Below, in pieces: positions 12,693 to 29,908 of a DNA stretch of 37,133 nt (position 1 is the first letter of the stretch; each line of letters starts with the position of its first letter). Source of the stretch: Kordiimonadaceae bacterium (GTDB lineage: Bacteria > Pseudomonadota > Alphaproteobacteria > Sphingomonadales > Kordiimonadaceae); assembly GCA_030148905.1 (NCBI GenBank), contig JASBSO010000156.1:1-37133 (forward strand). The letters run 5' to 3'. A program made the position numbers and the translations under genes. Below the pieces are notes generated by a model that saw only the letters and a list, made by a program, of their open reading frames with translations, was not told the origin of the DNA and made no database searches.

Positions 12693-12799
12693 GGGACACC
12701 CTTGTCGCAGTATTGGCGGGCCGCGAACCATAAGATAAGTTACGCAAAGTGCAAGCCGGAATGCGGCGCTGCGTCAGAAAAACCACGAAGGGCGGGGGT

Positions 12800-14890
12800 A
12801 TGGCCGGGCGACCGGAGAACTTATTTGGCTATTTTCGGGATGTCGACAGCCTTCGCGGCATTGGCCCGCGCTTAGCGGCGGCGCTTGAGCGGCTGTGCGG
12901 GCGGCGTGTGCGCGACCTGTTGTTTCATGCGCCCAGCCAAGTCATCGACCGCAGCGCCGTGCCCAAAATTGCCGATGTGCTTACGGGCATGCGCGCAACC
13001 ATCGCGGTGGAAGTGCGCGAGCATGTCCCCGCCGCCAACCGGCGCAGCCCTTATAAGGTGATTGTCGGCGACGACAGCGGCACGATGACGCTGGTGTTTT
13101 TTCACGGTCGCGGCGACTGGCTGAAAAAACAACTGCCCGTGGGCGAACAGCGTTATGTCTGCGGCGAAGTGGAGGATTTCCAGGGCCAGTGGCAAATGGC
13201 GCACCCCGATTATATTTTGCGGCCAGACGCGCTGGAAGACCTCCCCAGGATTGAACCGGTGTACCCGCTCACCGAAGGGGTGTCGAACAAGGTGATCCGC
13301 AAGGCGGTGATGCAGGCGCTGAGCACGGTGCCCGCCCTTGACGACTGGCAGGACACGGGCGCGCGCGACGCCGCCGGTTGGCCAAGCTTTAATGCTGCCC
13401 TTGCCGCGCTGCATGCACCGGAAAGTGGCATGGATTTAAGCCCGCTTTCCCCGGTGCGGGCGCGGCTTGCCTATGATGAAATTCTGGCCGACCAACTGGC
13501 GATTGCGTTGGTCAGAAACCGCGAACGGGCCCGCAAGGGCCGCGCGGTCACAAGCGACGGCAGCCTGACGGCCCGCGCGCAGGCGGCCTTGCCTTATCAG
13601 TTGACCGGCGACCAGCAAGCCGCCCTTGATGCGGTGGTGGCCGATATGCGGTCCGACAAGGCCATGCTGCGCCTGTTGCAGGGGGATGTGGGCTCGGGCA
13701 AGACCGTGGTGGCGTTTTTGGCGGCGCTGCACAGCATCGAGGCCGGGCATCAGGCGGCCCTGCTGGCCCCGACCGAAATATTGGCCCAGCAGCATTTCAT
13801 GACACTGCGTGCGCTGGGTGAAAGCGTCGGCATCAGTGTTGCGTTGCTGACGGGGCGGATCAAGGGCAAGGCCCGAGCGGAGCTGTTGGCGGCGCTCGCA
13901 GCCGGTGATATTGATCTTTTGATCGGCACTCACGCCATTATTCAGGACGCGGTGGTGTACCATGATTTGGCGCTGGCGATTATTGACGAACAGCACCGGT
14001 TCGGCGTGGCACAGCGGCTGGCGTTGGCGCGCAAGGGGGCGGCGGGCGTCGATGTGCTGGGGATGACGGCAACACCGATCCCGCGCACGCTGACGCTCGC
14101 ATTGTTTGGCGATATGGATGTGTCGCGCATTGCCGAAAAACCACCGGGGCGCAAACCGATCACCACGCGCGTTGTCGCCCGCGAGCGCTTGGACGCGGTG
14201 GTGGACAGCCTCCGACGCGCCTTTGCCCAGGGCGCACAGGCTTACTGGGTGACCCCGTTGATTGCCGAAAGCGCCAGCACCGATATGGCCGCCGCCGAGG
14301 AACGCTTTGCCCATCTTCAACAGCATTTTGGCGACAAGGTCGGCCTGTTGCACGGGCAGATGCTGGCCCGTGACAAGGATGCGGTCATGGCGCGCTTTGC
14401 CGAGGGCGCGCTCAATCTTTTGGTGGCGACCACGGTGATCGAGGTGGGGGTGGATGTACCGGCGGCGTCGATCATGATCATCGAAGGGGCCGAACGCTTT
14501 GGTCTGGCGCAATTGCACCAGCTGCGCGGCCGCGTTGGGCGCGGCGATCAGGACAGCAGCTGCCTGTTGATCAGGGGCGATCATCTAAGCGATGTTGCCA
14601 AAGAACGCCTGAAGGTCATTCGCGACAGCGAGGACGGCTTTTTTCTTGCCGAGGAAGACCTCCGCCTGCGCGGGGCCGGCGAGATTTTGGGCAAGCGACA
14701 GTCGGGCCTGCCGTCGATGCTGTTTGCCGACTATGCGGTGCACGGCGAGCTGTTGGCCCGGGCCCGCAAGGAAGCACGCTATTTGGTGGAGATGGATGCA
14801 CTCAATACCGGCGCGCGCGGGGCGGCGCTGCGCACGCTTTTGTATCTGTTTGAACGCGACACGGGGATCCGGCTTATGCAGTCGGGTTAG
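12800..14890 (+). CDS. recG: ATP-dependent DNA helicase RecG
   Basis: GDVGSGKTVVAFLAAL, DEQHRFGV, MTATPIPRTLTLALFGDMDVS, QLRGRVGRG; start chosen at MAGRPENLFGYF. Confidence 0.96.
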   Translation: MAGRPENLFGYFRDVDSLRGIGPRLAAALERLCGRRVRDLLFHAPSQVIDRSAVPKIADVLTGMRATIAVEVREHVPAANRRSPYKVIVGDDSGTMTLVFFHGRGDWLKKQLPVGEQRYVCGEVEDFQGQWQMAHPDYILRPDALEDLPRIEPVYPLTEGVSNKVIRKAVMQALSTVPALDDWQDTGARDAAGWPSFNAALAALHAPESGMDLSPLSPVRARLAYDEILADQLAIALVRNRERARKGRAVTSDGSLTARAQAALPYQLTGDQQAALDAVVADMRSDKAMLRLLQGDVGSGKTVVAFLAALHSIEAGHQAALLAPTEILAQQHFMTLRALGESVGISVALLTGRIKGKARAELLAALAAGDIDLLIGTHAIIQDAVVYHDLALAIIDEQHRFGVAQRLALARKGAAGVDVLGMTATPIPRTLTLALFGDMDVSRIAEKPPGRKPITTRVVARERLDAVVDSLRRAFAQGAQAYWVTPLIAESASTDMAAAEERFAHLQQHFGDKVGLLHGQMLARDKDAVMARFAEGALNLLVATTVIEVGVDVPAASIMIIEGAERFGLAQLHQLRGRVGRGDQDSSCLLIRGDHLSDVAKERLKVIRDSEDGFFLAEEDLRLRGAGEILGKRQSGLPSMLFADYAVHGELLARARKEARYLVEMDALNTGARGAALRTLLYLFERDTGIRLMQSG

Positions 14891-14920: not shown

Positions 14921-16072
14921 TCAATCGCCGGGGCAGCGCACCGGCTTTTCATAAATGCGGTAGGTTTTGTAATGCTCGCAGCCGATATCGACGAGGATAT
15001 TGCTCATGCCGGTATTGTCGTCGAGAATCCAGCCAAGCTCGCCCCAATAGGCCCCGCGTTCGCGGACATTGGTAGTGCTGTAATCGATCATCCAATAGGC
15101 CATCGCCGCACCCGAGACCGTGCGCTGATATTTCTGCTTTACGCCCATCAACGGCACCCGCATGCGGCCTTCCTTGCGCGTCAGGATGCGGCGGCTGAGC
15201 AGCTTGAAAATATTGAACGGAAACAGTTTGCCGCCGAAGTCGCGAATATCGTGGTTCAGGTCAGGGATGGTGATCATGAAGGCGGCGGGTTCGCCGTCGA
15301 CCTCGCAAATCACCGTGCGGTGCGGCTTGAGGATGAGTTTGAGCGAGTCTGCCAGATGCGTCGCCTCGCGCTCGGTAAAGGGCAGAAAGCCCCAATTGTC
15401 GGCCCAGGCGTCTTCGACGATATCGACGATGATTTTCACCTCGTCGCGCAGGTTTTTCAGGTTTGCCTCGCGCAGGACGAGTTTTTTGTTGCGCTCGGCG
15501 GCGCGGACAATGCGCTTGGTTTTCTCGGGAAAACCTTTGGTGAGGTCCAGTTCATAGGCCAGCAGGTCATGCGCCTTGGCAAAGCCAAATTCGGTGATCC
15601 ATGCGTCATAATCGGGGCGCCCGTGCGGCATCAAAAACGCTGGCGGGGTGTCAAACCCGTCCACCAGCGTGCCGCATTCCTCTTTTGACGACAGCGACCA
15701 TGGCCCCTGAATGCGCTTGGCCCCGCGCTCGCACGCACAGGCCTCCGCCGCGCCCAACAGCAGGTGCGCCACCTCTTTGTCCTGGGCTTCGAAATAGCCG
15801 AAATGCGCCAGATTTGGGCCCCATTTGTCCTGTGCCATCTCGTCGATCTGCGCCGAAATGCGGCCAACCGGATAACCATTGCGCTCGGCCAGATACAGCA
15901 CCACATGGGCATGCTCGAAAAACGGGTTTTTCTTGGGGTCCAGGCTTTCCAGCCGCTCCAGGTCGAGAGGCTGTACCCAATTGGGGTCATCCGCATAGAT
16001 GTCAGCAGTGACCCGGATGAACTTCATCAGGTCTTCTTTGCCGTTAACGGGGCGGACAACAAGATCACCCAT
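14921..16072 (-). CDS. GNAT-fold acyltransferase-like protein, candidate bacterial ceramide synthase (Caulobacter CCNA_01212/CC_1154-like)
   Basis: MGDLVVRPVNGKEDLMKFIRVTADIYADDPNWVQPL...NPFFEHAHVVLYLAERNGYPVGRISAQID; size and context with spt/acp/cerR suggest the ceramide synthase family. Specific assignment is inferred. Confidence 0.65.
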   Translation of the reverse strand: MGDLVVRPVNGKEDLMKFIRVTADIYADDPNWVQPLDLERLESLDPKKNPFFEHAHVVLYLAERNGYPVGRISAQIDEMAQDKWGPNLAHFGYFEAQDKEVAHLLLGAAEACACERGAKRIQGPWSLSSKEECGTLVDGFDTPPAFLMPHGRPDYDAWITEFGFAKAHDLLAYELDLTKGFPEKTKRIVRAAERNKKLVLREANLKNLRDEVKIIVDIVEDAWADNWGFLPFTEREATHLADSLKLILKPHRTVICEVDGEPAAFMITIPDLNHDIRDFGGKLFPFNIFKLLSRRILTRKEGRMRVPLMGVKQKYQRTVSGAAMAYWMIDYSTTNVRERGAYWGELGWILDDNTGMSNILVDIGCEHYKTYRIYEKPVRCPGD

Positions 16073-16106
16073 GATTTCTGTCCTTAGTGCGGGAAGCGGC
16101 TATAGT

Positions 16107-16874
16107 TTATGAGCCTTGCGGGGCCTGGCGTTTGTCGCGCGGCGAGCGGCTGTCGACGCCACCCGAAAGATTGGCAACCCAGGGGTATTTTTCGGCCTCT
16201 TCGGCGGTGTAGCCCAGATTGTTCACGGTCGGGCTGCGGCCTTTGACCTCGCTGCGCTCGTAAAACGTGCCAAACAGCTTGTCCACAGCAAAATTGGTAA
16301 TGCCGTAATTGCCATTTTCCTCCAGAAAATGGTGCATCATGTGGCGTTCTTTGAGATCGCGCAAAATACGGTTTTTCGGCTTGAAGTTCAGGTGTTGAAT
16401 ACAGTGCACATATTCATAGACCATGGTCAAAACCAGCCCGGTCATATAGCCAATAATGGCCCCGCCCCAGCCGTCGATCGCATAACCGAACGGCATGGTG
16501 GTCAAGGCAACGCTGGGCAAGGTGGTGTAAAGCGCGCCGAACAACACCTCAAGGTGATGCGGGTCCTGATGATGATCATAGTGGATGCGCTTCCAGAAAT
16601 TTGCCGTCAGCGGTGATTTCCACAACCACCGGCCATGCATGATAAAGCGGTGGGTGATATACCAGAAAAACGGAAACAGAACGGCATTGACCAGCACCGA
16701 CAGCAACCCCAAACGCCAGTCCGTGATCAATAGATAGCTCAGATACCCCGCAATCAGCGTCAGCACGATATACACCTGCACGGTGTAATGCGTGAAATAG
16801 GCGCGGTTCAGATCCTTGATGCCCATCTTGTTGAGATAATGACTTTTTTGTCGGTACAGGCTTTTGCCAAGCAT
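16107..16874 (-). CDS. Sterol desaturase / fatty acid hydroxylase superfamily membrane protein
   Basis: Histidine boxes HRFIMH, HYDHH, HMMHH in a multi-span protein; start taken at MLGKSLYRQKSHYLNK. Confidence 0.88.
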   Translation of the reverse strand: MLGKSLYRQKSHYLNKMGIKDLNRAYFTHYTVQVYIVLTLIAGYLSYLLITDWRLGLLSVLVNAVLFPFFWYITHRFIMHGRWLWKSPLTANFWKRIHYDHHQDPHHLEVLFGALYTTLPSVALTTMPFGYAIDGWGGAIIGYMTGLVLTMVYEYVHCIQHLNFKPKNRILRDLKERHMMHHFLEENGNYGITNFAVDKLFGTFYERSEVKGRSPTVNNLGYTAEEAEKYPWVANLSGGVDSRSPRDKRQAPQGS

Positions 16875-16980
16875 ATGTCTCTCCGTCGGTGGTGGCCGAC
16901 CATCGCTACCCGGTGTGGCTATTTTGCGGCTCTCTAGCAGATTTTGGGGCCTGACAACAATCGAAAATCCCGTGATCGCG

Positions 16981-18495
16981 CTAGGCGCGGCGTCTGAACG
17001 CACCCAATTTTCCAAGGGCTGCTGCGTCGGACGCGCGAATGCCATAATTCAGTTGCAGCCACAGGCCTGCTGCCAGCGCCAGGATTGCGGTGGCAATCCC
17101 TGCGCCCATACTGCCCGCGTGGGCCCAGTTAGAGCCCCCCACCGCGACGGCAAATACCGCCAGCGCCAGCGCTGCAATGCGCACAAGGTCCCATGTCCAC
17201 AGCGGGATATTCAGGCGGTATGCCTGCAAAAAGGCCAAATATGCGGTCATATTTAACCCCAACGCGGCAGCGATGGCGGCGCCGTTTAGCCCGCCAAATG
17301 GCCCGTCAGACGGGATTAGCCAAAAGGACAGGCTGGCCGTCACCGCAATTCCGGCAAGGCCGTTCAGGGTTGGCACCAGCGGGTGGCTTAAGGCTTCGTT
17401 CAACGCGGCGGCTGGGCCCGTCATTGCCTCAGTCATGCGGCCACCCAGCAAAATGAGCGTGGCAAAATACGCCGCCGCAAAGGCCGGCGATAGCAGGGCG
17501 AGGATATCTTCGGCGGCAAGGATAAGCGCGCACCCAAGCGACAACGCAAGCGCCGCCGCCAACCGGGTGGAAAATTGCGCCATGGTCAAGACCGCATCGT
17601 CGTCATGGGCGCGCCGCCCCGCCGCTGACAGTGGGGCCATGACATAATCAAAGGCAAGGCGCACAACCTGCAACACGCTGGCGAGCTTTCTGGCGACGGC
17701 ATACAGGCCCGCAGCTGCCGCACCGCCCGCACCGGCGATCAGCGCATTCAGCATGAAGACGGGCAGTTCGCTAAATAATTTGCGGACCAGATTGACCGGC
17801 ACCAGCGCGCCGCCCAGTTTGACATGCTGTGCGACACCGCTGGCATTCAGGGCAAAAACCTGTCGCCACCTGTAATGTTTCACGATCAAGCGCAGGGTCA
17901 GCAGAGCGGCAAGGCCGACACTGATCAGGTGGGCATAAAACAAACCGGCGCTTGTTAGCCCCATACCGGCAAACCCAACCGCGAGCGCGAGCCTGAGGCC
18001 TTGTTCGTAAAATATCCGCACCTTGATTTCGGGCCCAAAGGTCCCTAGCGCCCGAATGGCCGAGGTGCCAACCTCAACAAAGGTCCACAGCGGTAACACC
18101 CAGACATAGATGCGAAGAATATGACGAAGGTGCGGCATGTCGTCCGGTGCGGCACTGATCAGCGCACCAAGCCTGTCAGCATTCAAAGCGGTGACGAGGG
18201 CAAGGCTCACGGCCAAAACGAGGCTGACAGTCAGCGCTGCACGCAGGGCGCGGGCTTGCGCATCTGGGGTTTCACCCGGCACAAGGCGCTGGAGGACAAT
18301 CGGCTGCGCCCATTCGGTGATGGCTGTCATCACCTTCATATAACCCCACAACACCGCAAACAGGCCAAAGCCCTCAGCACCATAAAGCCAGGCAAAAACA
18401 ACGATGGAAACTGCCTCGATCAGGGCCCCCATGCGGCCCAGGAGGGCGGCAAAAAACCCTTGCGCGACCTTACCTTCTACCCCGTCAGTCGTCAT
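16981..18495 (-). CDS. MOP-superfamily oligosaccharide/lipid flippase (Wzx-like)
   Basis: ~500 aa multi-span protein; GAEGFGLFAVLWGYMKVMTAITEWAQPIVLQRLVP, KLASVLQVVRLAFDYVMAPL. Start ATG overlaps the stop of the upstream permease (18492-18495). Confidence 0.8.
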   Translation of the reverse strand: MTTDGVEGKVAQGFFAALLGRMGALIEAVSIVVFAWLYGAEGFGLFAVLWGYMKVMTAITEWAQPIVLQRLVPGETPDAQARALRAALTVSLVLAVSLALVTALNADRLGALISAAPDDMPHLRHILRIYVWVLPLWTFVEVGTSAIRALGTFGPEIKVRIFYEQGLRLALAVGFAGMGLTSAGLFYAHLISVGLAALLTLRLIVKHYRWRQVFALNASGVAQHVKLGGALVPVNLVRKLFSELPVFMLNALIAGAGGAAAAGLYAVARKLASVLQVVRLAFDYVMAPLSAAGRRAHDDDAVLTMAQFSTRLAAALALSLGCALILAAEDILALLSPAFAAAYFATLILLGGRMTEAMTGPAAALNEALSHPLVPTLNGLAGIAVTASLSFWLIPSDGPFGGLNGAAIAAALGLNMTAYLAFLQAYRLNIPLWTWDLVRIAALALAVFAVAVGGSNWAHAGSMGAGIATAILALAAGLWLQLNYGIRASDAAALGKLGAFRRRA

Positions 18496-19637
18496 GAGCG
18501 GCTGACAACCCGACGAAAGCGGCCCTCTTCGGCCAGGATCAAAATCGCATAGCCGACCAGCACAAACAGCAACAGGGGCGCCCATGCCGCCAAAAACGGC
18601 GGCACCACGCCAAATTTTCCCATAGCGATCATGAAATTATCGGCAACGAAAAAGGTGAAGCCGAGCGCCACCCCAATCGTTAGCCGCAGGGCCAGACTGC
18701 CGGTGCGGCGTGCACCAAAGGCCGTCACCGCGCCCAAAAGCGGCATGATAAGGCTCGAGAGTGGCCCGCTGAGACGTTTCATCAGGCTGGAGCGCAAGCG
18801 GTCGGTTGGCAGCCCCTCGCGGTCCAATTGACGGATCGCCTTATTCAGCGCGGTGAGCGACTCTTCGTCCGGGCGGATGCTCAGCGCCAAAAACCGGTCG
18901 GGCGGCGTGGTCAGCGACCAGGGCAGGCGTGCGTGCACCTCGGTCGCATAGCTGCGGGTGTCGAGCGCACGGACATTGTGCAGGGTCCACTGCCCGCCGC
19001 TGTAAAATGCAAAGTCAGCGCGGCGCGCACCGGTGATCTGCCCGCGCGGCCCCCGGCTGTAGAGTGTCAAACCATCCAAAACGATCTGCCCGCGAATAAG
19101 GCTGACGGTATCCACATAAACAAGCTCAGATCCATTGGTGATCCGCACCGCTGTCGGGGCGGCCTGAAAATCGCGGTGATCGACGGCAAAATCCGCGCTA
19201 CGCCAGCCGCTCAGGCTGCGATTGGCATCGATGACGACCGCTTCATGAAAGGCGAAATGGCTGCCGGCAATCATGGCGCAGGCGAGCCCAAGCGGAAACA
19301 AGATGCGGTGCGGTGACAGGCCCGCGGCGCGCATCACGGCGATTTCGCTGTGTTGGTTCAGTGTCGCGAGCGACAACAAGGTTGCCAGCAATGCGGCAAA
19401 AGGGGCGAATTGGCTGACAAGCTGCGGGAAGCGCAGCGCGACATAGCGCAGCAACTCGGCGCGCGTTGCCCCGTCTGCCGCCAGAATATCATCGCTGGTG
19501 GCCAGCAGGTCGAGCATTTGCAAAATAATGGTCAAGCCCAGCAAAATGCCAACAAAACGCTGAAGAAACAGGCGGGTGATATACCCACCAAGTGTTACGG
19601 ACGGCATGAAGAAACGGCGAATGCGGCGAACCATCAC
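18492..19637 (-). CDS. LptG-like permease (YjgP/YjgQ family)
   Basis: TLGGYITRLFLQRFVGILLGLTIILQMLDLL, LATLLSLATLNQHSEIAVMRAAGLSPHRI typical of LptG; overlaps the upstream LptF-like gene by 4 nt. Confidence 0.88.
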   Translation of the reverse strand: MMVRRIRRFFMPSVTLGGYITRLFLQRFVGILLGLTIILQMLDLLATSDDILAADGATRAELLRYVALRFPQLVSQFAPFAALLATLLSLATLNQHSEIAVMRAAGLSPHRILFPLGLACAMIAGSHFAFHEAVVIDANRSLSGWRSADFAVDHRDFQAAPTAVRITNGSELVYVDTVSLIRGQIVLDGLTLYSRGPRGQITGARRADFAFYSGGQWTLHNVRALDTRSYATEVHARLPWSLTTPPDRFLALSIRPDEESLTALNKAIRQLDREGLPTDRLRSSLMKRLSGPLSSLIMPLLGAVTAFGARRTGSLALRLTIGVALGFTFFVADNFMIAMGKFGVVPPFLAAWAPLLLFVLVGYAILILAEEGRFRRVVSRS

Positions 19638-20818
19638 GACAGCCCCAGCAGTTTTTTCGCTCCAACTTCGAGCGGTCTGCGAATACGGTCCCAGGCCGCG
19701 TCAATGGCCGACAGCGGGTCGCCGCCCGCTTGAAAAGCGCGCGCATAAAATATCCACAGCGACAGGCCCGCAAACCCCAGATACAACAGCCATATGGTGG
19801 AATACGGCGATGCACCGCCCGCCACCGACGCCTGCATCACCTCCATCAGTTCATTATAGACGATCAGCAGGGCAAGGCCGAGCACGACGCCTGTGCCGCG
19901 CGGGTTGCGGCGATTGGTGATGCCCATGGGGGCCGCCAGAAACGGCAGGATGAAAAAGGTCAGGCTGTGCATGATGCGCCAGTGAAATTGGGCATTGATG
20001 GCATTGCGCTCGGCGCTTGGCCGGTCCAGCGCGAAGCGTTCGCGCTCCAGTTCGATCAATGTCAACTCGCGCTCTTGCCCGCCGCGACCACGGAAGGTGG
20101 CGGCTTCTGGCAGGTCAATCGCCAGATCCTGTTGTTCGAACTGTAAAACCCTGGGCAGATTGTGGTCGGGGTTCAGGTCAACACTGGTGCCATTAAAAAG
20201 TCGCAGCAAAACCCGATCACTGCCAGGGGCGGCAAAAAACTGCCCGCGCTCGGCGCTGACCGCTAGGGTGCGCTCAGGCTCGCGGCGTTCGACAAACACG
20301 CCCAACAGCTCGCGGCCATTGTTGCGGGCACCGTCCACGCGCAGAACAGTATTTTTACCGATGGAAACGAATTCGCCGACATGGATGCTGGCCCCCAGCG
20401 CACCGCTTCTGAGTTCAAACACAAGCTCGCGGTAAGTATAGCGGCTATAGGGTTGCACCCAACCGGTCAGGACCAAATTGACCACCGCCAGAAACCCGGC
20501 AAGCCCAAGGGCGGGGCGGAGCAGGCGCAACAGGCTTTGCCCGGCGCTGGTGGCAACGTCATATTCGCTCGACAGCGACAAGGACCGAAACGCCATCATC
20601 ACCCCCAAAAACAGGCCAATGGGCAGCGCCAGCCCCATATAATGCGGCATCAAATTGGCCAGCATTTCAAACACCACATCAACAGGACCGCCCTGATTGA
20701 CGACAAAATCAAACAGGCGCAGCATGCGCTCCAGAACCAGGAGCAACGCAGCAATGCTGAGAGTGACCAGCAAAGGCACCAAAATGTGCCGCAATATATA
20801 TCGATCGAGCCGGTTCAC
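19634..20818 (-). CDS. LptF-like permease (YjgP/YjgQ family), GTG start likely
   Basis: VNRLDRYILRHILVPLLVTLSIAALLLVLERMLRLFDFVV...YMGLALPIGLFLGVMMAFRSLSLSSEYDVATSAGQS typical of LptF. Confidence 0.87.
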   Translation of the reverse strand: MNRLDRYILRHILVPLLVTLSIAALLLVLERMLRLFDFVVNQGGPVDVVFEMLANLMPHYMGLALPIGLFLGVMMAFRSLSLSSEYDVATSAGQSLLRLLRPALGLAGFLAVVNLVLTGWVQPYSRYTYRELVFELRSGALGASIHVGEFVSIGKNTVLRVDGARNNGRELLGVFVERREPERTLAVSAERGQFFAAPGSDRVLLRLFNGTSVDLNPDHNLPRVLQFEQQDLAIDLPEAATFRGRGGQERELTLIELERERFALDRPSAERNAINAQFHWRIMHSLTFFILPFLAAPMGITNRRNPRGTGVVLGLALLIVYNELMEVMQASVAGGASPYSTIWLLYLGFAGLSLWIFYARAFQAGGDPLSAIDAAWDRIRRPLEVGAKKLLGLS

Positions 20819-20984
20819 TATGCGCCTTTGTCCTGATGTTGACCCGTGCACCCAAAAGATGCCGAAACTGTGACCGTCTTTGTATCGAAGTCATCCGCGG
20901 CTTGCGACACAATTTCGCCATGACCCGCTGGCAATGCTCTGACAAGCGGAAAGGGCCTGTCACAGGGTATAAGAAGGATCATCA

Positions 20985-21491
20985 GTGAAAATGACGCGCC
21001 TGACACACCAAGCTATGATATTTGCGGCTTTGCTTGGGGGCAGTAGTTTGACGGCAAGCGCTGCCACTTGCGACAGCGAAAGCACACACCATGCTGCGGT
21101 TACGGTGAACAATATCTCCGGACCCGAAGGCAATATCCGCGTACAAATCTACAGCGATGACCCCGGCGAATGGCTGGAGAAGGGCAAAAAGCTGGTCCGC
21201 GTCGACACCCCCGCGACCGCCAACAAAGGCGGATCGCAGGAAATTTGTGTTCCTGTGCCTGGTGCGGGCACCTTTGCTTTTGTTGTGATGCACGACAAAA
21301 ATGCCAACGGAAAAGCCGATATTTTCTCGGAAGGGTTCGGGTTTTCCAACAATCCTGACCTTGGTTTATCCAAGCCGGACCACGAAGATGTGATCGTTTC
21401 TGTGAATACAGAGGTGACTAAACTATCGATCGACCTTAAGTATGTCTTTGGTGGACCTAAGAAAAAAAGATCGGGTCGGCGTCGCGGATAA
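20985..21491 (+). CDS. Secreted DUF2141 domain protein with polybasic C-terminus
   Basis: Signal peptide MKMTRLTHQAMIFAALLGGSSLTASA; GTFAFVVMHDKNANGKADIFSEGFGFSNNPDLG is the DUF2141 pattern; C-term KKKRSGRRRG. Confidence 0.85.
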   Translation: MKMTRLTHQAMIFAALLGGSSLTASAATCDSESTHHAAVTVNNISGPEGNIRVQIYSDDPGEWLEKGKKLVRVDTPATANKGGSQEICVPVPGAGTFAFVVMHDKNANGKADIFSEGFGFSNNPDLGLSKPDHEDVIVSVNTEVTKLSIDLKYVFGGPKKKRSGRRRG

Positions 21492-21638
21492 CGCAATTCA
21501 TTGTTTCAAAATTGTGACTTTACGGCTACAACACTGTCAACTATAAGGCGCCCGCACAAAGCGGTGGGCCCACCAATGGGCAAGATGGGTATAGTACAGG
21601 CTAAGTAAAACTAGCCTTAAGGGGTTGGAGCGCATTCC

Positions 21639-22634
21639 ATGCAATTAGACAAGCGCATTCTCCAGAGCGGGGCGTTGATCCCGATGGTTGCGGTGTTGTC
21701 CAACCCAAAGTCGACCACCAATCAGTTGGCGATGGACAGGGTGCGGTCGATTGTTAATGAAAGCCCCAATGTTGTGCATTTCGAGCTGAAAGACATCAGT
21801 TCGATCGATGAGGCGCTGGAACTGTTTGCGCGCGCCAACCCTTCGCTTTTGGTGATCAATGGCGGTGACGGCACCGTGGGCGCGGTTCTTGCGGCGCTCT
21901 TATACCGCAACCCGTTTCGGATCATTCCCCCCATTGCGGTGATGCCGGGTGGCAAAACCAACATGACCGCCGCCGACTTGGGCATCAAGGGCGACCCTGA
22001 AGCTGTGCTCAAACAATTGCTGTTGATTGCGCGCCAGGGCCGCATTCCGGACATGCTAACCAACCGCAACCTGATCGAGCTGGATCTCGGTAACGGTGAA
22101 GAGCCCAAAGTGGGTACCTTTTTCGGCGCGGCGGGCATCGTCAAGGCGATCAAATGGACCCGCGAAAACGCCTATTCCAAAGGCCTGCCCAATTGGTTGA
22201 GCCATTTTATGGCGTTTACCCGTGTGGCCGGTGCGTTTTTGGGATTTGGCCGCGATCAAAGCATTGTCAAAAGCGGCGAGATCGGTATTTCAATGCGCGG
22301 CGCGACGCCGCAGTCGTCCAATTATGTCATGATCACCGCGACGACGCTTGACCGTCTGGTACTCGGCCTTAAGCCTTATGGCCATGAAGGCGCCGGAGGG
22401 ATCAAATTCTCGGCGGTGGAATACGGCGCCGACAACACCAGGCGGGCGCTGTGGGCGCTGTTTACGCGCGGCTGGGGCGGCTCGAAAATTGATGGGTTGT
22501 TCACCCGCCGCTCGAACGAAATCAGCATCACCTGCTCGGATTCGGTGACGCTGGACGGCGAGCTGTTTGATCTTGATGACAAACAGGTTCTGCGCCTGCG
22601 CGGCGACAGATCATTGACCTTTGTCAGCCTTTAA
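21639..22634 (+). CDS. Diacylglycerol kinase-catalytic-domain lipid kinase, candidate ceramide kinase
   Basis: VLSNPKSTTNQ...LLVINGGDGTVGAVLAALL...AVMPGGKTNMTAADLG; adjacent to sphingolipid genes. Confidence 0.82.
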   Translation: MQLDKRILQSGALIPMVAVLSNPKSTTNQLAMDRVRSIVNESPNVVHFELKDISSIDEALELFARANPSLLVINGGDGTVGAVLAALLYRNPFRIIPPIAVMPGGKTNMTAADLGIKGDPEAVLKQLLLIARQGRIPDMLTNRNLIELDLGNGEEPKVGTFFGAAGIVKAIKWTRENAYSKGLPNWLSHFMAFTRVAGAFLGFGRDQSIVKSGEIGISMRGATPQSSNYVMITATTLDRLVLGLKPYGHEGAGGIKFSAVEYGADNTRRALWALFTRGWGGSKIDGLFTRRSNEISITCSDSVTLDGELFDLDDKQVLRLRGDRSLTFVSL

Positions 22635-22652
22635 GGCACTTCCTGTGGCGCT

Positions 22653-23570
22653 ATGACGCGCCAAATTTCCGATATTCTTGATTTCATCACTGCCGAATGG
22701 CAACGCGACGTAGCGCCTGAGGCTATGGCGGCCGCGCGCGCACTGGCTGACACGTACGGCGATGCCACAGTCGGTGTGCTGTTTTACGGGTCGTGCCTGC
22801 GGACAGGCATCATTGCGGACAGAATTCTGGATTTTTACGTCATTGTGCGCAGCTACAGGGCGGCCTACGGCGCGCATGTTGGCGGGCGGCTGTTGGCGGT
22901 GGGCAATGCCGTTCTGCCGCCCAATGTGTTTTATCACGAGATCGACGCGGACGGTGTGTGCGTTCGCAGCAAATATGCGGTCCTGTCGCTTGAAGATTAT
23001 GAAGCCCGCACCCGGCCGGATGTGTTGAATGTGTCGGTGTGGGCACGGTTTTGCCAGCCGGCGGTGCTGTTGTGTGCTGCAGATGACGACGTGTACAGTC
23101 GCCTGCGTGCGGCAACCGCCGAGGCGGCAAAAACAATGGTGCGCCATGCCGTGCCGCTTGCCGGTGGGCGCGACAGCGAAACCCTGTGGCCGACCGCCTT
23201 TGATCTGACCTACCGCTCCGAATTGCGGTCCGAGCCCGAGGGTAAGGGCCAGGAAATCTACGACCTCGACAAGGACCGCTATGACCGGCTGACGCCCCTG
23301 ATCCTGGACGCGATTGATGATGACACAGATGTCGCACCTAAGCGCGCCAAACGCCTGTGGGCCTTGCGCCGACTGAACGGCAAAACGGTCAGTTTTTTGC
23401 GGCTCATCAAGGCGGCTTTTACCTTTCAGGGGGGGATTGATTATCTCGCCTGGAAGATCAGCCGCCACTCGGGTGTGGCGGTAGAGATCGCCCCCTGGAT
23501 GCGCCGCGTGCCGATTGTGGCAGGGCTGTATCTGTTCGTCACCCTGCGCCTGAAGGGCGCGTTCCGCTGA
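22653..23570 (+). CDS. Nucleotidyltransferase-like protein, candidate sphingolipid head-group enzyme
   Basis: GVLFYGSCLRTGIIADRILDFYVIV resembles the NTase G-S...D-h-D motif with the last acidic residue replaced; 18 nt after the lipid kinase. Confidence 0.6.
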   Translation: MTRQISDILDFITAEWQRDVAPEAMAAARALADTYGDATVGVLFYGSCLRTGIIADRILDFYVIVRSYRAAYGAHVGGRLLAVGNAVLPPNVFYHEIDADGVCVRSKYAVLSLEDYEARTRPDVLNVSVWARFCQPAVLLCAADDDVYSRLRAATAEAAKTMVRHAVPLAGGRDSETLWPTAFDLTYRSELRSEPEGKGQEIYDLDKDRYDRLTPLILDAIDDDTDVAPKRAKRLWALRRLNGKTVSFLRLIKAAFTFQGGIDYLAWKISRHSGVAVEIAPWMRRVPIVAGLYLFVTLRLKGAFR

Positions 23571-23587
23571 GCCAAAGCTGTTGTCGT

Positions 23588-24790
23588 TCAGGGGGTTAAC
23601 GACAAACCGATATCACTAGCGGTTTTGACAAAGGCGTCGATGATCTGGTCAATCTGCGCGGTAGAATGCTGGGCGCTGAGCGATGTCCGCATCAGGAAAT
23701 AACCCGCCGGTGTGGCCGGCGGTGCCGACAGATTGACATACACCCCGTTCAAAAACAGCGTTTCCCAAAACCGGGTTGCCGCCTCAAGGTCGGGCAACAG
23801 CACGGCAATGATCGGGCTTTCGGCGGTGTCGGTGGCCATGGTGAAGCCCGCGTCTTTCAATCCGGCATGCAGGCGGCGTGAATTTTCCCACAAATGCTGG
23901 GCGCGGTTGCCGCTGCGGGCGATGGTTTGAATGTTGACCAAGGCGCTCGCCACCACGCTGGGCGGCAGCGACGCCGTGAACATATAAGGCCGACAGGCGA
24001 TCCGCAGCGTTTCAAATTTAGGGTGGTTCGAGACCGCAAACCCGCCAACCGTCCCGACCGATTTGGAAAAGGTGCCAACGATGAAATCACACAGATGTTC
24101 GACGCCAAACATCTCGGCCACACCGCGGCCTTTCTCGCCGCAAAAGCCCATGGAATGCGCCTCGTCCACCAGGGTCATGGCGCCATATTGTTTGCAGACC
24201 TCCAGCATCTCCTTGATCGGGGCCTGGTCGCCCAGCATCGAATAAATGCCCTCGATCACCACCAGCTTGCCCGCCCCCTCGGGGATGCGTTTCAGGCGGC
24301 GCTCCAGATTGTCGACATCATTGTGTTTGAAGCGGATGACATTGGCGTTGCCCATCGACGAGCCGTCATAAATGCTGGCATGACTATCGGCGTCGATGAT
24401 CAAATAGTCATCCTTGGCGCACAGGGTGGATATCAGGCCCAAATTCGCCTGATATCCGGTGGAAAACACCATGCAGTGCTCGGTGCCATAAAAGCGGGCA
24501 ATTTCAGCTTCCAAAGCCTTGTGGCTGCCATAGGTCCCGTTGAGCACGCGCGAGCCGGTGGTGCCGGTGCCAAAGTCATCAAGCGCCTTTTTGGCGGCGT
24601 CGATGGCCTCGCCGTTAAAGGTCAGACCCATATAATTATTGGTGCCGGCCAAAATGGTGCGACGCCCTTGAATCACCGCCTCGGTCTCGGACAAAACCTC
24701 GTCCATAACCACGGTCAGCGGGTCGGCCTTTTGAAAAGGCATGCTTTCGCGCGACTCTAGGATGTAATCAAATTTATCAAGCAAATCCAT
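23588..24790 (-). CDS. spt: Serine palmitoyltransferase (alpha-oxoamine synthase family)
   Basis: NNYMGLTFN...FGTGTTGSRVLNGTYGSHKALEAEIARFYG, DEAHSMGFCGEKGRGVAE, PLP-Lys region GTFSKSVGTVGGFAVSNHPKFE. Confidence 0.92.
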   Translation of the reverse strand: MDLLDKFDYILESRESMPFQKADPLTVVMDEVLSETEAVIQGRRTILAGTNNYMGLTFNGEAIDAAKKALDDFGTGTTGSRVLNGTYGSHKALEAEIARFYGTEHCMVFSTGYQANLGLISTLCAKDDYLIIDADSHASIYDGSSMGNANVIRFKHNDVDNLERRLKRIPEGAGKLVVIEGIYSMLGDQAPIKEMLEVCKQYGAMTLVDEAHSMGFCGEKGRGVAEMFGVEHLCDFIVGTFSKSVGTVGGFAVSNHPKFETLRIACRPYMFTASLPPSVVASALVNIQTIARSGNRAQHLWENSRRLHAGLKDAGFTMATDTAESPIIAVLLPDLEAATRFWETLFLNGVYVNLSAPPATPAGYFLMRTSLSAQHSTAQIDQIIDAFVKTASDIGLSLTP

Positions 24791-24820
24791 TTGGTTGGCC
24801 CAATTTTATTATGTGTAAGA

Positions 24821-25069
24821 TTAATTTTTATCGGCGACGATGCGATCTACGGCATCGGCCACCTGACCAATAGTTTCTAATTCGGGCAAAAGATTGATCG
24901 GCAAAAGAATATCAAACTCGTCCTCGATATCGGCGACCAGACCCATCACGGTCAGGCTGTCCAGTTCCAGGTCGGCTGCGAAGGTGGTGTCGGCCGTCAG
25001 CGGCACACCCTTTTTGTTGATAGGCTCGATCAGGTCGCAAATCTTGGCGAGTGTGGCTTCGGATGTCAT
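24821..25069 (-). CDS. acpR: Acyl carrier protein (sphingolipid-dedicated, AcpR-like)
   Basis: FAADLELDSLTVMGLVADIEDEFDI contains the phosphopantetheine DSL motif; directly upstream of spt. Confidence 0.88.
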   Translation of the reverse strand: MTSEATLAKICDLIEPINKKGVPLTADTTFAADLELDSLTVMGLVADIEDEFDILLPINLLPELETIGQVADAVDRIVADKN

Positions 25070-25151
25070 ATTTTCCTCGGCGAAAAAAGAGGGGTGGAAT
25101 CTGCCAGACCACGCTCGCATTAAGCCGGTGGCAACACGGCCCGCGACATTA

Positions 25152-26090
25152 TCACAAAAGATCGTTTTGGCGATACCAATCTATTGTCGCGGCCATTCCG
25201 TCTTTCAGGGTCACCCCAGGCGCCCACAGGGCATCAGGGGGGCGCCTGTCGGGCTGGACGGTCCAATCCGGATGACATAGATATTGGGCTGTGGTGCGCG
25301 TCAGCATCGCCGGTGTGTTGGTGATCCGCGCGCGCCAGCCATTGATGACACCGCCAAGCCATAGGGCAGGCATGGGGATGGTGACAATGCGGACCTCGGC
25401 ATCAATGGCGGCGGCGATATCGCTGATCTGATAGCCGCCGTGGCCGTCATCAACCTCGAACGTCCCGTTGATATGCGGGTTTTCGGCCGCGCGTACCAGG
25501 GTTGCCGCCAGGTCCGGAGCAAAGCACATGGAAAATCGGTTTGACCGGCTACCCAGCGCGGGCAAAAAGCCGCTCTCTGCGACCTGAATGATTTTCAGAA
25601 TTTCATGGTCGCCGGGCCCGTAAATGGCGGGCGGGCGAATGATCGTCCAGCGCAGCGAGCGCGGCCTGCCGGACAGCAACAAGTCACCAGCGGCCTTGCT
25701 GGCCCCGTAATGCGACAGGCTGGGCTCGCGTGCAGCAAGGCTTGAGACCTGAACAAAATGCTTGGCCCCGACGCGCTCTGCCGCCATCAGCAGGCGTTCT
25801 GTGCCTTCCATATTGACGTCAAAAAACTGGCTGCGGCCGATGGCCTTGGTGAGGCCGGCGATATGCACAACCGAATCAGCCGCTTTGGTCAGGGCTTCAA
25901 GCGCCGAGACATGTTCAAGCGAGCCGTGAATCCATTCTACACCAGGGCGGGGCGGTTGCGGCCGCCGGGTGAGGGCGCGCACAAACCAGCCGCGTTCAAG
26001 GAAATGATCCAGCACATGCGCACCGAGAAAGCCGGTTGCTCCGGTCAGGGCGACCGTCTTGCCGTTCCAGTCGGCAGGCTTCAGTGACAT
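25152..26090 (-). CDS. cerR: NAD-dependent epimerase/dehydratase, candidate 3-oxo-ceramide reductase (CerR-like)
   Basis: VALTGATGFLGAHVLDHFLERGW Rossmann motif, YGASKAAGD (YxxxK); directly downstream of the acyl-AMP ligase (TAA|ATG). Confidence 0.8.
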   Translation of the reverse strand: MSLKPADWNGKTVALTGATGFLGAHVLDHFLERGWFVRALTRRPQPPRPGVEWIHGSLEHVSALEALTKAADSVVHIAGLTKAIGRSQFFDVNMEGTERLLMAAERVGAKHFVQVSSLAAREPSLSHYGASKAAGDLLLSGRPRSLRWTIIRPPAIYGPGDHEILKIIQVAESGFLPALGSRSNRFSMCFAPDLAATLVRAAENPHINGTFEVDDGHGGYQISDIAAAIDAEVRIVTIPMPALWLGGVINGWRARITNTPAMLTRTTAQYLCHPDWTVQPDRRPPDALWAPGVTLKDGMAATIDWYRQNDLL

Positions 26091-27842
26091 TTAGCTGGCG
26101 AGCGCTTGCAGGCGCCCAGAAAGATACTGAATGCGTGCTTTTGACCGGCTCAACTTGCCCGATGAGGTGCGGGGTAGCGAGCGCGGTGGCACCAGCTCGA
26201 TAATGCAATTGATGCCGGTTTCGCGCTGAATATGTTTTTTCATATCGTCAACAAAGCGGGCGCGTTCGCTGGCGTCTCGCACGCCGAACTGCGCCAAGAT
26301 CATCGGCACTTCCTCGGCGTTTTCGCCGGGCACCGAAATTGCCGCCACATCCCCGTTTTTTACGCCGGGCAGTTGTTCGGCGGCCCATTCGATATCTTGC
26401 GGCCAGTGGTTGCGGCCATTGACAATGATCAGGTCTTTGGCGCGGCCCACAATGAACAGGTCACCGTCTTTCAAAAAGCCCATATCGCCGGTGTCCAGCC
26501 ACCGGTCTTCGGACAAAACCGCCTTGGTGGTCTCCGGGTCATTGAAATACCCCGCCATCACCGACGTCCCGCGGACAAACACACGGCCAACAACGCCGCC
26601 GTCGACGACGGCGTCGTCTTCGTCGCGGATTTCCACTTCATATTCAGGCAGAGGGCGACCACAGTTTACCACCTCGCGGTAGCGCGGTTCGTGCGCCGCA
26701 CCGTTGACCAGAATATGTCGCTCGCCCGCCAGGCGGGCTTCTTCCACGCGCTCGATCGAAATGCCCTTGCCAACCTCACCAAAACTGACGCCAAGCGTAC
26801 ATTCTGCCAGGCCGTAGCTGGGCAAAAACGCGTTTTCTGAAAACCCGACCTTGGCAAAGGTATCGGCAAAGGCACGCATCACATCGGGGCGGATCATATC
26901 GCCGCCAATGCCGGCAACGCGGACCGACGACAAATCCAGATCGTCCATCGCGTTGGCGCGCAGCGAGGCGCGCCGCGTGCAAATGTCAAATCCAAAGGTT
27001 GGGCTGTAGGTAATGGTGCCGCGATTGGCCGACATAATGCGCAGCCAGGTCAAGGGGCGACGGGCATATTCTTCGGTTGGGATGAAATCAACCGAGCACT
27101 GCGATGTCACCGTCGTCAGGAACGTCCCAACAAGGCCCATGTCATGATAAAAAGGTAACCACGAGACACAGCGGTCGTCGTCGCGCATTTGCACCCCGTG
27201 TTCGCCCATGCCGCGTGTGTTCGACAAAAGCGACCGGTGGGTTACTGCGACACCGTGCGGAAAGCGGGTGCTGCCCGACGAATATTGCAGATAAGACAAA
27301 TCGTCAGGGCTGGGCAGGGCCAGGTCGCCGTCACCCGCATAGGCCATATAATCGCTGAGGGCGCCGCTGAACCGCAGGTCAACATCGGTACTGGCTTGTT
27401 CAACCATATCCTGCATGAAGGCGGGGGCCATGACGCCGGTGGCCTCGCACGATTTCATTTGCCCGTTCAGTTGGTTGATATAACCGTCTTTACCGCCAAA
27501 ACTGGTCGGCAACGGCAGGGGAACAGGCAACACGCTTGCGTATTGGCAGCCCAGAAAAAACACAACAAAATCGGCGCTGGTTTGCGCAATCAGCGCAATG
27601 CGGTCACCGCGCTCGAACCCCATGGCGGTCAGTTTTTTAGCGAGCGCAACGGCTTTTTCGCGAACCTCGGCCCATGTCAACGCTTCGACAAGGTCGCCCC
27701 GGCCACTGAAAAAATTCACCCCGCGCTTGCCTTTGGCGGCATAGTCGAGGGCCTCAGTCAGTGTTGGGAAATCCGCCATGCGACGCGGCAGGCTGTCGTC
27801 CAGCGTGGGTGTAACACCTGTAATCAATTCATTTCCAACCAT
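26091..27842 (-). CDS. aasR: Fatty acyl-AMP ligase / acyl-ACP synthetase (AasR-like)
   Basis: YLQYSSGSTRFPHGVAVTH, VGRAKDLIIVNGRNHWPQDIE (FAAL hallmark), SGKLSRSKARIQYL; start taken at MVGNELITGVTPTLDD. Confidence 0.88.
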   Translation of the reverse strand: MVGNELITGVTPTLDDSLPRRMADFPTLTEALDYAAKGKRGVNFFSGRGDLVEALTWAEVREKAVALAKKLTAMGFERGDRIALIAQTSADFVVFFLGCQYASVLPVPLPLPTSFGGKDGYINQLNGQMKSCEATGVMAPAFMQDMVEQASTDVDLRFSGALSDYMAYAGDGDLALPSPDDLSYLQYSSGSTRFPHGVAVTHRSLLSNTRGMGEHGVQMRDDDRCVSWLPFYHDMGLVGTFLTTVTSQCSVDFIPTEEYARRPLTWLRIMSANRGTITYSPTFGFDICTRRASLRANAMDDLDLSSVRVAGIGGDMIRPDVMRAFADTFAKVGFSENAFLPSYGLAECTLGVSFGEVGKGISIERVEEARLAGERHILVNGAAHEPRYREVVNCGRPLPEYEVEIRDEDDAVVDGGVVGRVFVRGTSVMAGYFNDPETTKAVLSEDRWLDTGDMGFLKDGDLFIVGRAKDLIIVNGRNHWPQDIEWAAEQLPGVKNGDVAAISVPGENAEEVPMILAQFGVRDASERARFVDDMKKHIQRETGINCIIELVPPRSLPRTSSGKLSRSKARIQYLSGRLQALAS

Positions 27843-28127: not shown

Positions 28128-29327
28128 ATGACGCAAAACACCAACACAGCGGTGCCGGATTGGGCGCAAATCCGCGCCGAAACGCCCGGCACTGCCGAGC
28201 GGCTTCATCTGGATAATTGCGGGTCGTCGCTGCTTCACATGTCGGTCATCACCCGGATGAAAACCCATTTTGAGCTGGAAATTGCCCTGGGTGGCTATGT
28301 GGCCCAGGAGCGCACCGCAGACGAGATTGAGGGCTTTTATGCCAGTGCCGCCCGCCTGATCGGCGCAAAGCCCGCAGAGATCGCGCTGACATCCAGCGCG
28401 GTCGATGCCTGGACCAAGGCCTTTTACAGCCTGGACTGGCAGGCGGGCGAGACCATCGTGACCGCCTACAATGAATATTGCAGCAACTATGTCGCCTATC
28501 TTGATGTGGCGGAAAAAAAGGGCGTCAAAATCCGTGTTGCCCGGTCCGACCCGGCGGGCGGGCTCGATTACGAGCATCTTGCAGGATTGGTAGACAGCAG
28601 CACACGGTTGATCAGCTTGTCGCATGTCTCGTCGTCCAGCGGCGATGTGATTGATGCGGTGCGGGTGGGCGCGACCGCAAAGGCGGCGCAGGTGCCGTTT
28701 CTTTTGGACGCGTGCCAATCGGTTGGGCAAATGCCCGTCGATGTTGGCACCATTGGCTGCGACATGTTGTCGGCGACATCGCGGAAATTTGTGGCCGGTC
28801 CGCGCGGGGTGGGGATGCTCTATATGTCCGAGGCCATGCGTGCGCGCACAACACCGGCGATGCCCACCAACCAATCTGCCGTCTGGAGCGGTACGAACAC
28901 CATCGAGCGCCGCACCGATGCCCGTGCCTTTGAAGCGTGGGAGCGCAGCGTCATGCTGCAGCTTGGCTTCAAACAGGCGATTGACAATAGTCTACATTGG
29001 GGGGTTGAGGCGGTGTCGGCGCGCATAAGCGACCGGGCCAAACGGCTGCGGGACGGTCTTGCGTCGCTCGACTGCGTGCGCCCTACATGCCCGCCCGGGG
29101 CCGAAGCCGCCATCATCACCTTTCAGCACGCACGGCTGTCGCCGCAGGATTTCAAGGCCTGGATGGATGCGCGCGGGATCGGGGTGCAGGTCGCATCGGT
29201 TGTGCATACCCGGCTTGATTTGGAAGCGCGCGGCATCGAGTCCACCATTCGGATTTCGCCGCATATATACACCAGCGACGACGAGATTGACCGCTTTCTC
29301 AGCGAAGTTCAGCGCGCGGGACAGTGA
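28128..29327 (+). CDS. Aminotransferase class V-fold PLP-dependent enzyme (cysteine desulfurase-like)
   Basis: FLLDACQSVGQMPVDVGTIGCDMLSATSRKFVAGPRGVGMLYM with the PLP Asp and Lys positions of class V. Confidence 0.85.
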   Translation: MTQNTNTAVPDWAQIRAETPGTAERLHLDNCGSSLLHMSVITRMKTHFELEIALGGYVAQERTADEIEGFYASAARLIGAKPAEIALTSSAVDAWTKAFYSLDWQAGETIVTAYNEYCSNYVAYLDVAEKKGVKIRVARSDPAGGLDYEHLAGLVDSSTRLISLSHVSSSSGDVIDAVRVGATAKAAQVPFLLDACQSVGQMPVDVGTIGCDMLSATSRKFVAGPRGVGMLYMSEAMRARTTPAMPTNQSAVWSGTNTIERRTDARAFEAWERSVMLQLGFKQAIDNSLHWGVEAVSARISDRAKRLRDGLASLDCVRPTCPPGAEAAIITFQHARLSPQDFKAWMDARGIGVQVASVVHTRLDLEARGIESTIRISPHIYTSDDEIDRFLSEVQRAGQ

Positions 29328-29908
29328 CGATCATGCCCAAACCGCGTCAACAGACCGAGCCCCAGCGCACCAAGAAAGTCACTGCTGATTGGCTGGAACG
29401 CGCGGGGCTTTATTATTTGGGGCGGTTTTCTGCCAGCGAAGCGCATTTCCGCACGGTGATGATGAGAAAAATCCAGCGCCGCCTGCCAGACGGCTGCGAT
29501 GTGCAAGCGCTTCACCATGACTGGCTGGATGCGCTGGTCGAAAAATTGAAGCGCTATGACTATCTCAATGACGCCACTTACGGCGAGGCGCGCATGCGGG
29601 CGCTGCGTGCACGGGGCAAGCCGCTGCGGCGTATCCGCGATGATTTACGGCACAAAGGCGTCCCCGACGATATGATTGCAAACCTGTTGAACGAGCTGGA
29701 CGACGGCGAGGGCCATCCGGATCTGCGTGCGGCGGTCCGCTATATCGAGCGGCGCCGTTTTGGTGCCTTTGCACGCGCGGGGTCAGAAAAGCCCTATGAC
29801 AAACAGCTTGCGGCCATGGCGCGTGCGGGATTTTCCTATGACATTGCCCGTGCTGTGCTGGATGCAGACGATCCGCACGGTCTGTTGGAGGATCAGACGT
29901 TGTCTTAA
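29324..29908 (+). CDS. recX: Regulatory protein RecX
   Basis: YYLGRFSASEAHFRTVMMRKI, LKRYDYLNDATYGEARMRALRARGKPLRRIRDDLRHKGVPDDMI is RecX-like; GTG start overlaps the previous stop. Confidence 0.85.
   Translation: MTIMPKPRQQTEPQRTKKVTADWLERAGLYYLGRFSASEAHFRTVMMRKIQRRLPDGCDVQALHHDWLDALVEKLKRYDYLNDATYGEARMRALRARGKPLRRIRDDLRHKGVPDDMIANLLNELDDGEGHPDLRAAVRYIERRRFGAFARAGSEKPYDKQLAAMARAGFSYDIARAVLDADDPHGLLEDQTLS

Follow-up and report, generated by a model that had tools for sequence, protein, structure and literature searches.

A Caulobacter-type locus predicted to synthesize, modify and export sphingolipids in a Kordiimonadaceae bacterium

The sphingolipid gene cluster of Caulobacter crescentus has been defined experimentally (CC_1168-CC_1152; PMC11324152), and its N-acyl hydroxylase is reported to be of the DesA type (PMC11324152). 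AcpR and AasR have been published as a specialised acyl-loading pair (PMC9386255), and the transport route of bacterial sphingolipids to the outer membrane was called unknown in 2024 (PMC11324152). Related gene sets occur in other bacteria: loci of Sphingomonadaceae, for example Sphingomonas parapaucimobilis, hold a reductase, an ACP, SPT, LptF, LptG and bCerS close together, and the spt operon of the E. coli BL21/B7A type carries SPT, ACP, reductase, acyl-AMP ligase, the bCerS homologue YghO and LptF/LptG. The same genes are found in the stretch of DNA analysed here (the window), 37,133 nucleotides from a draft Kordiimonadaceae genome that is 93% complete. The window locus is a further example of a type already known, the Caulobacter kind.

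For comparison we used, in place of C. crescentus, the named locus of Caulobacter endophyticus, which has the published CC_1165-CC_1152 gene order. A further set of related loci, suspected to come from Caulobacter, proved to be of other origin on the evidence of a CtrA search and of named contigs. The window and Caulobacter share the aasR-cerR-acpR-spt operon, bCerS, CpgB, CpgC and a second-type LptF/LptG pair, in the same relative order and on the same strands; a DUF2141 gene is also common to the window and the C. endophyticus locus. Genes for a flippase-like protein and a hydroxylase, between LptG and bCerS, are present only in the window, whereas the window has no counterparts of Caulobacter CpgA (CC_1159), CC_1158, CC_1153 or CpgD (CC_1152). 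A search of the host draft for this CPG2 pathway pair returned no match for CpgA and no full-length match for CpgD. The Sphingomonadaceae stretch differs from the window in lacking CpgB, CpgC and the flippase-like gene, and in having, in the hydroxylase slot, a gene of the fatty acid desaturase type on the opposite strand. As an earlier note on this DNA had proposed, the locus falls into three apparent transcription units, read from strand and spacing rather than transcripts, because a plus-strand unit (DUF2141, kinase and CpgC-like genes) sits between two minus-strand units. The second of these runs LptF-LptG-flippase-hydroxylase-bCerS, with bCerS as its last gene. Promoter-like sites in the window showed no excess over chance. 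Since relatives keep the gene order, a chance arrangement is excluded.

The earlier note had also named a candidate for each of the five roles in ceramide synthesis, four of them at 23588-27842 and a GNAT-like protein at 14921-16072, all on the minus strand. Every one of these open reading frames is intact, and profile matches together with identity to the C. endophyticus locus (SPT 54%, AasR 50%, bCerS 44%, CerR 37% and ACP 38% over 56 residues) uphold all five assignments. The serine palmitoyltransferase (SPT; 23588-24790) scores 597.6 bits with NCBIfam NF047599 (cut-off 500), matches solved bacterial SPT structures in a PDB sequence search (2X8U, 543 bits) and carries the PLP lysine motif GTFSKSVG, as expected of a rhodobacterial-type SPT. 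Adjoining spt, the dedicated acyl carrier protein AcpR (24821-25069; PF00550) has a PP-binding domain with the DSL serine. CerR (25152-26090; PF01370), the predicted 3-oxo-ceramide reductase, is an extended SDR inside the spt operon, orthologous to CC_1164, with GATGFLG and YxxxK motifs. AasR (26091-27842), a fatty acyl-AMP ligase/acyl-ACP synthetase in the same operon, scores 796.9 bits with NF006624 (cut-off 600) and would complete the acyl-loading pair with AcpR.

The GNAT-like protein (14921-16072) gave no match in Pfam, NCBIfam or PDB sequence searches; the CpgC-like protein likewise gave nothing useful in the PDB search and nothing in Pfam. We therefore turned to structure prediction for both. 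The model of the GNAT-like protein (pLDDT 89) matches tandem GNAT structures (E 9e-15). In a phylogenetic tree, the window protein and Caulobacter bCerS, encoded by CC_1154, both lie within an spt-linked group; two of three tested GNAT paralogues fall outside it with support 100, and the third (25% identical) sits on a very long branch, so that its placement is unsure. The linkage of bCerS to spt, acpR, cerR and aasR holds in the window, in the loci of relatives and in annotated records. E. coli YghO (40% identity) was considered as a counter-example to this linkage and rejected, as it sits in an spt operon. Judged by sequence, tree and predicted fold, the GNAT-like protein is a bacterial ceramide synthase, placed in that clade as the earlier note had suggested.

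That note had further read the interleaved genes as modification and transport functions, which their family memberships (LptF/LptG, CpgB, CpgC, hydroxylase, flippase-like) bear out as predictions. On the plus strand, a DUF2141 protein of conserved position (20985-21491; PF09912) is followed by a CpgB-type lipid kinase (21639-22634; DAGK_cat, PF00781) with an NGGDGT motif. It lies between LptF and CpgC, is predicted to be a ceramide kinase and shares about 30% identity with the protein that occupies this position in Caulobacter. The CpgC-type protein (22653-23570), 35% identical to its Caulobacter counterpart, is a predicted cytidylyltransferase whose model is closest to the CDP-diacylglycerol synthase Tam41 (E 2.6e-8); the likeness is one of predicted fold, sequence similarity being undetectable and identity in the structural alignment 13%. 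On the minus strand, the flippase-like polytopic membrane protein (16981-18495) matches MatE weakly, under the cut-off (E 0.0028); relatives keep its gene between LptG and bCerS, and a search for homology to CC_1166, made in the sequence that precedes spt in Caulobacter, gave no match.

The remaining modification gene (16107-16874, minus strand, with its start placed at 16874) encodes a member of the PF04116 fatty acid hydroxylase superfamily (65.8 bits) that we predict to be a ceramide N-acyl hydroxylase. It shares the PF04116 histidine-box family with the ceramide fatty acid hydroxylases Scs7 and FA2H, to which it has a significant profile match, and a likeness in substrate is putative; unlike them, it is a distant, 255-residue protein that lacks a cytochrome b5 domain. 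PF04116 spans several substrate classes, and Scs7, the sole type of significant PDB match, is found partly by default, as the only member-type structure able to match. The enzyme might instead act on the sphingoid base, hydroxylating it at C4, or on a different lipid, for instance a carotenoid. We consider this possible but on balance unlikely, in view of the position of the gene. It is kept adjoining bCerS in relatives, and across 108 loci the same slot holds a PF04116-type enzyme in 27, a DesA-type enzyme in 40 and both in none; the two hydroxylase types are unrelated and mutually exclusive, and DesA is the type reported for the N-acyl hydroxylase of Caulobacter. N-acyl hydroxylation is therefore our preferred reading.

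The transport genes bear on the composition of the outer membrane. LptG2 (18492-19637) and LptF2 (19634-20851), both minus-strand PF03739 permeases, score 264.9 bits with TIGR04408 (cut-off 240) and 236.4 bits with TIGR04407 (cut-off 230), above the cut-offs of NCBIfam models that are named for LPS export. These scores, and a second LptFG pair that adjoins a glycosyltransferase elsewhere in the host genome, would suit a pair that exports LPS or another glycolipid and adjoins the ceramide genes by chance. We weighed this role and judged it improbable, for the following reasons. In our tree the order's LptF proteins join those of other sphingolipid loci in a clade with support 99, apart from canonical LptF; canonical LptFG from Alphaproteobacteria is represented in this tree by a single long-branched example, and a direct AU test against the S. 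meliloti canonical LptF was marginal (p 0.049). LptFG of the E. coli BL21/B7A type, in contrast to that of the window, groups with gammaproteobacterial canonical LptFG and therefore looks separately recruited. The order, which in our genome collection takes in Kordiimonadaceae, Iodidimonadaceae and Sphingomonadaceae, was searched in 81 genomes, 67 of them near-complete. LptF/G is linked to bCerS in 60 of the 67; exactly two LptF/G matches, one pair, occur in 54, and in 49 of these the pair lies within 10 kb of bCerS. The lipid A search, which covered LpxC and LpxK, found LpxC in none of the 81 genomes, the Sphingomonadaceae with such loci included, and LpxK above cut-off in one, as a partial match. 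Caulobacter, which retains both enzymes, and E. coli were positive as controls. Every near-complete genome of the order (67/67) has bCerS, compared with 57 of 387 in a sample of the class.

The order thus appears to have lost lipopolysaccharide, and since LpxC and a complete LpxK were not found in it, sphingolipids probably take the place of LPS in the outer leaflet. We somewhat favour the fuller reading that the order lost lipid A and the canonical LPS permease and kept LptF2/LptG2, normally as its sole Lpt permease; the outer leaflet would therefore be built of sphingolipid, delivered by a dedicated Lpt machine, and the ceramide would be hydroxylated by either of two unrelated, interchangeable enzymes whose genes adjoin bCerS.

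From sequence and genomic context, on which the gene roles were assigned, we infer the following catalytic steps in the host. AasR would activate a free fatty acid and load AcpR, SPT would condense the AcpR-bound acyl chain with serine, bCerS would attach the second acyl chain and CerR would reduce the ketone to give dihydroceramide. The PF04116 enzyme would then probably hydroxylate the N-acyl chain, after which CpgB would phosphorylate the ceramide and CpgC probably convert it to CDP-ceramide, on which a headgroup transferase with its gene elsewhere would act. The flippase-like protein and LptF2/LptG2, with the lipid as presumptive cargo, would carry the finished product towards the outer membrane. 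That the SPT-like genes yield some other alpha-oxoamine-derived compound, such as a sulfonolipid or a different acylated amino-ketone, with an unrelated GNAT acyltransferase, seems very remote: the family does include BioF, Kbl and cysteate acyltransferase, and the GNAT protein lacks a curated family match, but SPT exceeds its equivalog cut-off while falling far under those of the NCBIfam KBL and BioF models, the GNAT protein groups with Caulobacter-locus bCerS, the neighbourhood matches a proven cluster and a ceramide-kinase-type gene adjoins. We put at roughly 90% the probability that the locus is a complete Caulobacter-type sphingolipid factory, covering synthesis, modification and export by this scheme.

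A taxonomic survey in 2020 concluded that alphaproteobacterial sphingolipids appear restricted to Sphingomonadales, with Kordiimonadales treated as a separate order (PMC7179689); the locus predicts sphingolipids in Kordiimonadales too. With the PF04116 enzyme, it also supplies a bacterial candidate for a ceramide hydroxylase of the Scs7/FA2H kind. The pattern seen across the order renders sphingolipid export through a dedicated Lpt machine testable, and a seemingly lipid-A-less order, where most genomes carry just one LptF/LptG pair, generally housed in the ceramide locus, offers a clean natural system for the export question.

The open reading frames that the earlier note had assigned to a ceramide locus are all in place and uninterrupted, and the locus has three units, as that note had counted, two on the minus strand and one on the plus strand. 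The first (minus strand, 20851 to 14921) encodes the sphingolipid-linked permease pair LptF2 and LptG2, a flippase-like protein, a predicted hydroxylase and the bacterial ceramide synthase (bCerS); the second (plus strand, 20985-23570) encodes a DUF2141 protein, the ceramide-kinase-type CpgB and CpgC; and the third (minus strand, 27842-23588) encodes AasR, CerR, AcpR and serine palmitoyltransferase (SPT). Likely inner start codons lie at 16874 for the hydroxylase and, from reading of the translations, at 18495 for the flippase, 25069 for AcpR and 27842 for AasR. Domain and equivalog scans back the identities of SPT, the ACP (AcpR), the extended SDR (CerR) and the fatty acyl-AMP ligase (AasR), and the top PDB matches of the SPT are bacterial SPT structures. 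On the model of published Caulobacter work, synthesis would proceed from AasR through AcpR, SPT and bCerS to CerR; whether reduction precedes or follows the second acylation is debated in the literature. On either side of the locus (12749-14890 and 28128-29908) are genes for RecG, RecX and a PLP enzyme resembling EgtE, which are retained there in many relatives, apparently with no functional tie. The position of the DUF2141 gene (20985-21491) is constant across Kordiimonadaceae loci and the C. endophyticus locus, and such a gene also lies near LptF in Roseomonas. Its positional counterpart in C. crescentus, CC_1157, has been called unrelated to the pathway; because the position is conserved, the protein may belong to it.

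The proposed ceramide synthase found no match among curated families or PDB sequences in domain, equivalog and PDB sequence searches. Its AlphaFold model (pLDDT 89) matches tandem GNAT acyltransferases in a structure search, and the predicted fold therefore bears out the original description as GNAT-like. In a maximum-likelihood tree, the protein falls within one group with Caulobacter bCerS, represented by C. endophyticus standing in for C. crescentus CC_1154; two paralogs lie outside this group with full support, and a third, 25% identical, sits on a very long branch of unsure placement. The C. endophyticus locus (cerR-acp-spt, cpgC-cpgB-cpgA, a phosphoesterase, DUF2141 and LptF2-LptG2-bCerS-nucleotidyltransferase, with a CpgD-like gene farther along and AasR beside cerR in the adjoining stretch) is laid out like the C. 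crescentus cluster that was defined by experiment. Tree and arrangement together uphold the assignment as ceramide synthase.

Searching 80 relatives and the window's own genome, we found bCerS in all 67 near-complete genomes of the order (here Kordiimonadaceae, Iodidimonadaceae and Sphingomonadaceae); gene order around it is largely retained in 20 of these loci, with parts missing in some families. In a wider class sample, 57 of 387 near-complete genomes carry bCerS. Named genomes with a match include Kordiimonas, whose family is that of the window, Iodidimonas, many sphingomonads and Caulobacter endophyticus. A 2020 survey (PMC7179689) concluded that sphingolipids among Alphaproteobacteria appear restricted to Sphingomonadales. 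Two Iodidimonas-family genomes encode a second bCerS paralog, 33-34% identical, with no ceramide gene within 10 kb. On an E. coli plasmid record (L087, 1337-9116), YghO, annotated by name alone, is a bCerS homolog 40% identical to the window protein, and its neighbours are SPT, ACP, reductase, acyl-AMP ligase and an LptF/LptG pair.

The gene between the flippase and bCerS encodes a PF04116 protein whose sole significant PDB matches are to Scs7, the yeast ceramide fatty acid hydroxylase. In some Kordiimonas genomes a PF00487 DesA-type enzyme fills this slot; the Caulobacter N-acyl hydroxylase CC_0202 is also reported to be DesA-type. In 108 loci where enough sequence lay to either side of bCerS, raw counts that ignore kinship for a 1.5 kb distance from that gene gave 27 with the PF04116 type, 40 with the DesA type, 41 with neither and none with both; annotated examples are a sterol desaturase family protein in Roseomonas and a fatty acid desaturase in Sphingomonas. 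We infer non-orthologous replacement of a putative ceramide N-acyl hydroxylase, the N-acyl chain being the predicted site for the PF04116 enzyme.

Two lipid A genes, LpxC and LpxK, were sought in 81 genomes of the order, with E. coli and Caulobacter controls positive for both. LpxC was found in none; LpxK gave seven short fragments below the cut-off and one partial match above it, in an 85% complete genome (G053, contig C63, 16262-16594), which may represent contamination or a remnant. Despite the absence of LpxC matches, LptF/G occurs in 65 of the 67 near-complete genomes, as a single pair (exactly two matches) in 54. It lies within 10 kb of bCerS in 60 of the 67, among them 49 of the single-pair genomes. 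In the LptF/LptG tree, the order's LptF shares a clade (support 99) with LptF proteins linked to sphingolipid genes in Caulobacter, Diaphorobacter and other bacteria, separate from canonical LptF of E. coli, Pseudomonas and S. meliloti; a constraint joining it with S. meliloti LptF was rejected only marginally (p 0.049). The LptFG of E. coli and Pseudomonas sphingolipid loci clusters with gammaproteobacterial canonical LptFG, which suggests a second recruitment. The C. crescentus study (PMC11324152) named LptC2/F2/G2 as probable transporters and called the route unknown; sphingolipid is the putative cargo here. The window's own genome is among the minority with a second pair (G000, C4:8599-10319 and C176:3-650, interrupted by a contig break), whose LptF also falls in the sphingolipid-type clade. 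Ahead of this pair lie a gene of glycosyltransferase type and one for a polytopic membrane protein, and the pair is possibly a glycolipid exporter. A literature search that left out most preprints and subscription journals returned no paper devoted to Kordiimonas sphingolipids, nor one on sphingolipid producers without LPS in which LptFG is normally the only Lpt permease.

Counterparts of CpgB and CpgC are present at the locus. CpgA had no match in 12 tested genomes of the window's family, including its own 93% complete draft, and CpgD had only weak or partial matches in the same set; a CPG2-type double headgroup is therefore not predicted. The CpgC-like protein gave no match in a Pfam scan, and the closest structure to its model is the CDP-DAG synthase Tam41 (E 2.6e-8, TM about 0.5). 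An InterPro domain in CC_1161 had earlier prompted the idea that ceramide-1-phosphate is activated to NDP-ceramide, and the predicted Tam41-like fold supports that idea structurally. In this organism, CDP-ceramide would be the activated form, and a headgroup is likewise predicted.
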